64,000 bases of DNA, taken from Paracoccaceae bacterium. Its GTDB lineage: Bacteria > Pseudomonadota > Alphaproteobacteria > Rhodobacterales > Rhodobacteraceae. The notes below the pieces were generated by a model, which worked only from the letters and a program-made list of their open reading frames with translations, was not told the origin of the DNA and searched no databases. Position 1 is the stretch's first letter, and each line of letters opens with the position of its first letter. The translations under genes were made by a program, and so were the position numbers. Positions 44,300 to 50,246 of this stretch are shown here, piece after piece. The stretch is taken from assembly GCA_024742835.1 (NCBI GenBank), contig JANSXS010000007.1, forward strand, positions 1-64,000. Reading direction: 5' to 3'.

Positions 44300-45538
44300 A
44301 TGATCGACCAGAACAGCGCCGCGATCGGGCGTTTCGACAAGTCCTTTCTCGTCCATATGATAAAGGATTTCTTCCTGATCCTCCTGCTGGTGACAATTGT
44401 CGAATTCACCATCAAGGCGGGGATGGTTTATTACAATTACACGACCAACGGACAGACCGAAGCCGCCCGCGTCACGGAAAACCTGTCCGATAATGTGCGC
44501 TCCATCATGCGCAACGAGGGCGGGCCGGTCGCAGCGCGCACGATGTATCCAATTCTTGAAACAAACTGGAACGATCTGGGGTACAAGGTGGCAATCGTGC
44601 CCGCGCCTGTCACCGTGACCTCCATCGAGGAAAATTTCGGTTTCACCCCCGAAGGCATCCCCGCCGGCCCCTGGCCCGAAGGGCGTCACAAGACCGCCAG
44701 CGAGGACATCACCGCAGAGCCGTTTTGCCTTGCCTGCCATACATCTGCCGATGTGGGCGACGTTCTGGGCACAGTGATCGTACGCAATTATCTTGCCAAG
44801 GATTTTGCGATCTGGCTCAAGGATATCCAGCTTTCGGGCGGGCTGGCCATCGGCAAGATCCTGTTGCACTCCGTCCTTCTGTTCCTGATCCTGCGCGCCC
44901 GGATGGAGCCGCTGATCGGCCTGCGGTCGGTCGTTTCCAACCTCGCGCGGGCCTATGGCGGGCTGCATCACCGCGCCGATATCCGCACCGCGGACGAATT
45001 CGGCGCGCTTGCCCGCGACCTCAACCAGTTTCTGGATCGCATCAGCCGCGTGATCGGTGAACTGGATCAGGTTCTGGGCCGTGTCGTCACCGTCAATGAC
45101 GACATCGTGCGCGTACAAGGCGATCTGCGTGACCGCATCGACACCGTGATAAGCCGCCTGCGCAAGTTGGAACGCGGAGCGATGATTTCCGCCAAAGGCG
45201 AGCCGCGCCTGTCGCAACGCTGGTTCGAGGCCGCGCGCCTGTCGGTGCTTGCGCATAAAGAGCGGCCAGACGATGCCGAGGCCACAGCCGCCCTGCTGGA
45301 CGAGCTGCAAGAGGTCATCGCCAGCGCAGAGGCCCAGATCGGAAATTCCGAGGCATTGTTCAAGGATCTGGCCGATCTGGGGGCCGAATCCGAAACGCTG
45401 CGCGATGCCATGTCCGAAATGACCCGGCTGGAAGAACGACTAAAGGCGATCATCGAAACCGGCAGCACCCTTGTTCAGCGTGTGCGTCCCGATGCAAACC
45501 AGGCTAGCGGAACATCACAAGCACCGGAACAAGCATAA
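44300..45538 (+). CDS. DUF3365-like haem sensor with HAMP, no output domain
   Basis: The 412-aa protein has a first membrane segment (about 26-46, FFLILLLVTIVEFTIKAGM), a periplasmic DUF3365/Tll0287-type domain with a c-type haem motif CLACHT (about 143-148), a second membrane segment (about 185-202), a HAMP-like region (LEPLIGLRSVVSNLARAYGG, then TADEFGALARDLNQF) and a C-terminal coiled coil (about 270-390). There is no kinase, cyclase or chemoreceptor signalling tip, so it probably signals by direct contact. The sensed ligand (redox, NO or CO) is inferred. Confidence 0.8.
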   Translation: MIDQNSAAIGRFDKSFLVHMIKDFFLILLLVTIVEFTIKAGMVYYNYTTNGQTEAARVTENLSDNVRSIMRNEGGPVAARTMYPILETNWNDLGYKVAIVPAPVTVTSIEENFGFTPEGIPAGPWPEGRHKTASEDITAEPFCLACHTSADVGDVLGTVIVRNYLAKDFAIWLKDIQLSGGLAIGKILLHSVLLFLILRARMEPLIGLRSVVSNLARAYGGLHHRADIRTADEFGALARDLNQFLDRISRVIGELDQVLGRVVTVNDDIVRVQGDLRDRIDTVISRLRKLERGAMISAKGEPRLSQRWFEAARLSVLAHKERPDDAEATAALLDELQEVIASAEAQIGNSEALFKDLADLGAESETLRDAMSEMTRLEERLKAIIETGSTLVQRVRPDANQASGTSQAPEQA

Positions 45539-45569
45539 AAAAAACCGCCGCACGCTGGGACAGCGGCGG
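45537..45569 (-). terminator. Rho-independent terminator of the small SOS gene (leftward)
   Basis: On the minus strand the 7-bp stem CCGCCGC / GCGGCGG with an 11-nt loop is followed by eight Ts (45544-45537). It ends the leftward transcript from the 45722-45844 gene. Confidence 0.75.
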
Positions 45570-45721
45570 CGGCAGTAATGCGTTTTCGTGGGTCCGTCGC
45601 GTGGCCCGGAGCGAGGCGAAAGCCCTCGGGCGCAGACGATGGGACAGTGAAAGGCGCGTCAGGTTTGGGACAGGAGACGCGGTTTCAGGCGACGGTCACG
45701 AAAGATCGCAGGCAGAAAAGG

Positions 45722-45844
45722 TTAAAGGACCCCCGGCAGGTAGAGCGCACCAATCAGAATGATGCTAAGCGCGGCGGCCCCGATGAAATCCCCCAACAAA
45801 GTATCGCTGGAGCGGCGGGCGGCTGTCTTGATCTGGCTGAGCAT
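45722..45844 (-). CDS. SOS-box small membrane protein, 40 aa
   Basis: This short gene has ATG at 45844 with GGAG 7 nt upstream, and stop TAA. The 40-residue product has a polar basic start (MLSQIKTAARRSSDTLLGDF) and a single hydrophobic helix (about 21-37, IGAAALSIILIGALYLP), so it is probably an inner-membrane protein with N-terminus in the cytoplasm. A consensus alphaproteobacterial LexA site lies 66 nt upstream. Caulobacter SidA, a 29-aa SOS-induced membrane protein that blocks division, is comparable in size, topology and control, but no sequence similarity is claimed. Located downstream of recG. Confidence 0.75.
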   Translation of the reverse strand: MLSQIKTAARRSSDTLLGDFIGAAALSIILIGALYLPGVL

Positions 45845-45909
45845 TGGCAAGCTCCTTATCAGGTCATTTATGTTGCTCCTTTGTTCTCATTTCGCGGGCG
45901 TGATGTAAA

Positions 45910-45924
45910 GAACTTTATGAGAAC
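45910..45924. promoter_or_regulatory. LexA (SOS) box, GAAC-N7-GAAC
   Basis: GAACTTTATGAGAAC matches the alphaproteobacterial LexA consensus (GTTC-N7-GTTC on the minus strand) exactly. It lies 66 nt upstream of the small membrane-protein gene. It overlaps a perfect 9-nt inverted repeat, TGTTCTCAT (45882-45890) / ATGAGAACA (45917-45925). Confidence 0.75.
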
Positions 45925-45976
45925 ATTTGCGAACTTTTAAGGATTTTGTGCCCAAACCCTTTGTTTTGAGGGCCGT

Positions 45977-50246
<4,270 letters not shown>

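Follow-up and report, generated by a model that had tools for sequence, protein, structure and literature searches.

Among the described systems closest to the locus analysed here, SidA of Caulobacter crescentus is a 29-aa inner-membrane protein under LexA control (PMC4211646), and the LexA-type dinQ locus of Escherichia coli behaves as a type I toxin-antitoxin system (PMC3567139). At the RNA level, DinR originates from the dinI 3' UTR, is LexA-controlled and represses ftsZ, with inhibition of division shown (PMC10907235). For Rhodobacteraceae, we came across no SOS division inhibitor in the open-access literature searched, a coverage outside which most subscription papers fall. Here we consider a micropeptide gene in a 64,000-nucleotide stretch of a Paracoccaceae genome, referred to below as the window. 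Comparison across the family indicates that its open reading frame (ORF), the LexA box ahead of it and an RNA structure behind it are conserved, and we judge the chances evenly balanced that the locus produces a LexA-controlled dual-function transcript restraining cell division by at least one of its two arms.

The locus is a compact unit on the minus strand (45537-45934) comprising operator, presumed promoter, Shine-Dalgarno sequence, 40-codon ORF, a structured segment of ~150 nt and an intrinsic terminator. The LexA box, GTTCTCATAAAGTTC in gene sense and GAACTTTATGAGAAC otherwise, occupies 45910..45924, with a third GTTC half-site 6 nt upstream of it (45931..45934) that is present in 90 of 107 distinct loci. 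Its edge is overlapped by the hexamer TTTACA (45904..45909), which would serve as the -35 element, and a second, imperfect LexA-like site, GAAC-N7-CAAC, is predicted over the presumed -10 region (45872..45886), while a sigma-70 scan at the locus called no promoters. The Shine-Dalgarno sequence AAGGAG (45852..45857) precedes a gene of 45722..45844, stop included, with its ATG at 45842-45844 and its stop codon at 45722-45724. The structured 3' RNA follows at 45573..45719, and the terminator (45537..45567) combines a stem at 45544-45567 with a T run to 45537; a terminator scan of 1801 bases returned this one, against a mean of 1.9 in shuffled sequence. Upstream on the same strand, the recG frame ends at 45977, its product carrying RecG_wedge and RecG_dom3_C domains in a Pfam/NCBIfam search, and a simple C-terminus test places recG directly ahead of the micropeptide gene at 110 of 116 loci, counting duplicates. 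On the other side, a convergent gene (44300-45538, plus strand) encodes a membrane protein of 412 aa that scores as a HAMP-domain protein (27 bits, cut-off 25) and whose sensor part contains a CxxCH motif; the stop codon of this gene abuts the micropeptide T run, so the terminator region may serve both genes.

An initial annotation of this DNA had described a 40-codon leftward gene with a strong ribosome site, one membrane helix and its own T-run terminator. ORF, LexA box and terminator are real, and the ~150-nt structured RNA between stop codon and terminator was absent from that annotation. Beyond the presence of the ORF and its AAGGAG, the gene is under purifying selection (pN/pS 0.36 over 30 loci), and one hydrophobic helix emerges both from Kyte-Doolittle analysis, in which the best 19-residue window has a mean of 2.18 and begins at residue 16, and from an AlphaFold2 model, a single helix over residues 2-39 with a mean pLDDT of 92.2. 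Both lines of prediction support a tiny single-helix membrane protein, in which a cytoplasmic N-terminus bearing K6, R10 and R11 would likely be followed by a C-terminal membrane helix. Five residues (T15, D19, G22, L34 and P37) show no variation across 42 diverse members, and the micropeptide matched no Pfam or NCBIfam family at E up to 1. It may itself be a division inhibitor, which we consider less likely than not.

The case for LexA control rests on conservation of the operator. The window contains one exact GAAC-N7-GAAC, at 45910-45924, against 1.49 expected by chance, so the motif alone proves nothing; the whole source genome contains 67 exact matches, compared with 109 for the pattern read backwards, and exact-pattern statistics were therefore set aside as uninformative in favour of conservation. 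Among these 67, a codon-usage caller placed 51 in coding and 16 in intergenic sequence; sorting by open frames was dropped, as it placed the lexA and recA boxes inside spurious GC-rich ORFs. Exact boxes of this pattern precede both lexA (C35:35198) and recA (C18:4791), and the genes behind several of the 16 intergenic boxes are ones that we take to be uvrA, uvrD, a Y-family polymerase and mmcB.

Upstream of the micropeptide gene, an exact GTTC-N7-GTTC is present in 106 of 107 distinct Rhodobacteraceae loci, the sole exception (L119) having a single mismatch, GTTG in place of GTTC. Across the 107, the box begins 71-107 nt (median 80) 5' of the start codon; in the first, tblastn-derived set it was exact in 30 of 30 loci, 71-88 nt ahead of the ATG. 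A GTTC followed by a TTTAC/TTGAC-like stretch is found in 103 of the 107 loci, and a GAAC-N7-[CG]AAC over the presumed -10 region, LexA-like by sequence, likewise in 103. Further overlapping GTTC-N7-GTTC copies extend the operator at L130, L163, L168, L185, L187 and L189. The spacing equals that of the C. crescentus LexA consensus, (T/A)TGTTC-N6-TGTTC (PMC13384398). Moreover, recG of some alphaproteobacteria appears to be LexA-regulated in a comparative study, the available part of which mentions no gene behind recG (PMC3323433). The initial annotation had taken the spacing for the alphaproteobacterial LexA type, which the boxes at lexA, recA and the family loci bear out, and had proposed SOS control, with conservation of ORF and box among relatives as the check. 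Searched for by tblastn, both are conserved, and as they are conserved jointly across the family, the lack of conservation that was to count against the proposal is not what is found. Judged as a LexA regulon member, the gene has GTTC-N7-GTTC in its promoter, kept among relatives, and is almost certainly under SOS control.

Within the genus, 33 of 35 genomes matched the micropeptide in tblastn at E values no higher than 4.3e-5, the two exceptions being G002, which is 76% complete and had no match, and G019 (E 0.227). Among 390 genomes of the order, a profile of 29 sequences recovered the gene in 345, all from one family (f1) among the matches listed, and in 133 of the 139 genera sampled. Of the 45 genomes without a profile match, 20 were re-searched with a broader profile, and 17 of them yielded a short, divergent ORF preceded by an exact box at a distance of no more than 250 nt, leaving G065, G137 and G166; two genomes first scored as misses, G106 and G149, carry the micropeptide gene. 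Among weak-hit genomes added to the set, the box is exact in 9 of 10, the exception being L188 of G067. In a class-wide sample, 10 of 385 genomes matched, five of the same family and five weakly in other families, the latter (among 380 genomes) with E values of 0.001-0.009 and in open frames of 124-908 aa. One of these weak matches, G720, was rejected as a homologue, having a different open frame and a context without resemblance. Across these 380 genomes, the family profile thus gave no convincing match, and the gene looks restricted to the family. In the divergent loci L185-L208, L328 and L329, the LexA box is exact in 25 of 26, while the peptide shrinks (to ~31 aa in genus g31) and drifts until hardly more than a D..G...LP core is left; in these genera the operator outlives the protein sequence.

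The micropeptide terminator lies ~155 nt past the stop codon, and the intervening gap is taken up by the conserved structured RNA, in which an outer stem encloses inner hairpins and CUGCC and CUGUCCC are exposed. In the source genome, the RNA (45537-45727, terminator hairpin included) folds at -76.4 kcal/mol (z -5.62), with none of 200 shuffles as good. The motifs TTTCTGCCTGCG, CCTGTCCC, CTGCCTGTCCC and TTGCCTC recur between stop codon and terminator in relatives, and the terminator pattern is recognisable in 88 of 91 distinct 3' regions. MAFFT misaligned the 3' side of 30 RNA cores, and with larger MAFFT sets RNAalifold no longer recovered the structure; a covariance model built from a three-sequence seed was used instead. 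Run over 485,537 bases with an E limit of 1, this model matched 72 of 100 loci, in a single place each and directly behind the gene. Ten main-set loci were unmatched (L057, L119, L134, L138, L140, L142, L144, L146, L148 and L167), as were all 18 divergent loci searched with it; many divergent loci keep shorter hairpins with CTGCC or GTCC motifs ahead of the terminator.

In the resulting 72-sequence alignment, paired cells amount to 88.3% against 64.9% in shuffled alignments, and compensatory changes on both sides occur in 31 of 31 modelled pairs (shuffled mean 25.6, with 31 reached by 1 of 500 shuffles); the alignment is fitted to the model and its sequences are related, so the pair counts lean towards the model, and the margin is large. 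The covariation score is 0.524, compared with 0.174 when shuffled and at most 0.065 when slid, and RNAalifold on the same alignment predicts 21 pairs, all among the 31, with helices 4 and 5 missing. A refined model matched 69 of 149 family genomes in one place each (one genome per genus, strict filters, 20 candidates scored per genome) and, with 12 candidates scored, 3 of 240 genomes class-wide, all three of the same family. The source-genome RNA (45573..45719) reaches 71.1 bits with it. Rfam gave no match at gathering score in the whole 64-kb window and only sub-threshold ones, at E 1.3-4.8, within 45400-46100. Fold and covariation together argue that the 3' segment is very probably a functional structured RNA, an earlier description of which we did not find in the open-access literature. 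A terminator with a U run would suit Hfq binding.

The ftsZ leader was chosen as a candidate target because of the division hypothesis and the DinR precedent, and was not picked from a scan. The 76 RNA-leader pairs represent 74 distinct leaders, since L136 and L308 are one genome entered twice and L138 and L139, both Limimaricola, have identical leaders; the ftsZ pairs of G208 and G402 were left out of the pair statistics, their divergent RNA falling outside the set, as were L219 and L236 among 20 same-genus ftsZ leaders, which have no RNA partner in it. Background leaders start at predicted, not annotated, positions, and a set of 996 was cleared of ftsZ starts. Most Rhodobacteraceae ftsZ leaders share a start region like CAGGCGGACAG, which is absent from ten ftsZ leaders of other families. 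CAGGC[AG]G falls no more than 22 nt from the start in 69 of 76 ftsZ leaders (67 of 74 distinct) against 7 of 996 others, and AGGC[AG]GAAA occurs in 25 of 76 against 0 of 996; all genomes share ancestry, so these ftsZ counts are not independent. AGGAG, GGAGG or GAGGA lies within 22 nt of the start in 0 of 76 ftsZ leaders and in 73 of 996 other predicted leaders, and a start region without an AGGAG-type motif is unusual for an essential gene (L222, ftsZ loci L216-L304).

When each genome's own RNA is considered, 39 of 70 ftsZ leaders contain the complement of its first CUGCCnn (G-U pairs allowed) within their final 25 nt, compared with 2.4% of background, and 37 of 61 contain that of the second CUGCCnn (background 2.5%). 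The complement of the L2 motif is found in the last 25 nt of 0 of 72 ftsZ leaders (background 1.8%) and within 60 nt in 18 of 72 (background 4.7%). As a control, the reversed 5' motif matches 49 of 70 ftsZ leaders, which counts against ftsZ pairing. The source-genome ftsZ leader is among the 7 of 74 whose final 22 nt contain no CAGGC[AG]G; its CAGGCAGAAAA is an exact 11-nt complement of the RNA's UUUUCUGCCUG.

Full-length duplex energies, which over 46 pairs gave a mean z of -1.40 (permutation p 0.0036), were replaced by pairing energies that include the cost of opening. With opening cost, the mean energy is -8.45 for 75 ftsZ leaders against -1.74 (sd 3.52) for 429 other leaders predicted in the same genomes, of which 22 reach the ftsZ energy of their own genome. 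Dinucleotide-shuffled RNA gives -5.00 and shuffled leaders -4.92. The reversed RNA gives -7.63 against -8.44 for the true one, with the true pair better in 50 of 76 (p 0.0014); CAGGCGGAC is mirror-symmetric, which weakens this control, and the worry is not removed. Matched RNA-leader pairs reach -8.44 against -7.85 for mismatched ones, a slight advantage (permutation p 0.015, 47 representatives, phylogeny uncorrected). In the source genome taken by itself, ftsZ pairing is not significant and ftsZ does not stand out: 17 of 248 other leaders pair as well as or better than ftsZ with opening cost included, and 63 of 248 equal or beat it by duplex energy alone.

Paired changes between RNA and leader, read by eye, appear in two lineages and with exceptions. 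In Loktanella-/Yoonia-type genomes the RNA's GUCCCACC has its match in the ftsZ leader GGUGGGAC, a combination shown by L128, L142, L145 and L146. Limimaricola hongkongensis (L134, leader L255) combines an RNA GUCCCGC with a leader GCGGGAC, and Cognatiyoonia sediminum (L136, leader L269) combines an RNA GUCCCG with a leader CGGGAC. The exceptions are L305, with A against C, L138, L139 and L150, with AUCCCGC, and L140 and L310, in which the RNA motif is absent. In the window, the leader of one other gene is predicted to pair over 13 bp (-20.5 kcal/mol) with the structured RNA, in its 5' part, which makes this gene a possible other target. Weighing these comparisons, we place the probability that ftsZ is a real target of the 3' RNA slightly below even. 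The complementarity is a hint, independent of the peptide, that points towards division.

In the explanation that we propose, in which LexA binding, induction, RNA processing, ftsZ repression and peptide action are all inferred, a single LexA-repressed transcript would yield two products. One would be a membrane peptide of 40 aa whose single helix follows a short cytoplasmic N-terminus and leaves hardly anything on the periplasmic side; the other would be a terminator-tailed, structured 3' UTR RNA that works either as part of the mRNA or after processing into a small RNA. LexA would repress at two operators, and RecA-triggered LexA cleavage after DNA damage would allow the transcript to be made. 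CUGCCUG and CUGUCCC of the RNA may then pair with the ribosome-binding region of the ftsZ mRNA and with sites upstream of it, lowering FtsZ, a repression that is the leading, unproven mechanism, while the peptide would act in the membrane, possibly on the late divisome. The net effect of the transcript would most likely be slower cell division. The most complete form of this proposal, a damage checkpoint common to Rhodobacteraceae in which a micropeptide restrains the divisome and a 3' RNA of a new class silences ftsZ translation, loops and leader co-evolving, we consider rather doubtful.

That a chance motif happens to lie next to a spurious ORF would accord with the 1.49 boxes expected in the window, but is already refuted by the conservation of box and ORF across the family (box exact at 106 of 107 distinct loci, pN/pS 0.36); its probability is practically nil. 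A SidA-like checkpoint exerted by the peptide alone would block the late divisome at FtsW or FtsN, the RNA stabilising or timing the mRNA. The size, single membrane helix and LexA control of the micropeptide resemble those of SidA (PMC4211646), and its invariant residues in 42 diverse members fit such a role, yet the covarying RNA and its complementarity to ftsZ would go unexplained, and divergent genera keep the box and hairpins while the peptide drifts. We regard this account as unlikely.

The peptide could instead be membrane-active in the manner of DinQ or TisB, lowering membrane potential and slowing metabolism, with the RNA setting its dose. This is quite unlikely in our estimation: LexA control and one helix are as in DinQ (PMC3567139), and the tandem operator suggests tight repression, but the conserved polar residues T15 and D19 suggest a specific partner. 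Alternatively, the RNA may regulate targets other than ftsZ, or many mRNAs, the ftsZ match arising by coincidence of two conserved motifs. Several source-genome leaders do pair better, including that of the window gene with the 13-bp duplex, and RNA-leader co-evolution is weak; against this, in most genomes ftsZ ranks at or near the top of the locally sampled leaders (of 429 background leaders, 22 reach it), and we hold this account, too, to be quite unlikely.

Under the preferred reading of a dual-function transcript, the locus may help Rhodobacteraceae to pause division upon DNA damage. An SOS gene and a small membrane peptide are ordinary as parts, and the whole, with its structured 3' RNA, is unusual. 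A gene kept with a LexA operator and a covarying RNA across the family is a strong candidate for an SOS division inhibitor, and if the ftsZ pairing is true, one SOS transcript would unite a membrane-peptide checkpoint with a riboregulatory one. Furthermore, the 3' RNA offers a new RNA family, and the peptide and RNA arms can be tested separately.

Set against the known systems, UdsC of Rhodobacter sphaeroides, a member of the same family, is likewise a 3' UTR RNA, its host gene encoding a hypothetical protein, but it is 67 nt long, RpoHII-dependent and binds the rpoHII leader, and its source paper uses neither the term LexA nor the term SOS (PMC9779115). Given its RpoHII dependence and its 67 nt, UdsC was ruled out as the same locus (PMC9779115). 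DinQ, like the micropeptide, is an SOS-controlled single-transmembrane peptide, with features of its own in that an antisense RNA, AgrB, keeps it in check and that it causes membrane depolarisation (PMC3567139). SidA shares with the micropeptide, whose membrane location is predicted, the character of a tiny, LexA-controlled, single-pass membrane protein from an alphaproteobacterium, at 29 aa compared with 40 aa, and 'SidA-class' is a label by analogy. DinR of Klebsiella pneumoniae resembles the micropeptide locus in uniting a LexA-controlled mRNA with an ftsZ-directed 3' RNA, which here is predicted, and differs in that its host gene, dinI, is unrelated to the micropeptide gene. Moreover, the ftsZ-pairing stretch of DinR is given as Klebsiella-specific in the available part of its report (PMC10907235), whereas the Rhodobacteraceae RNA appears folded and conserved family-wide.
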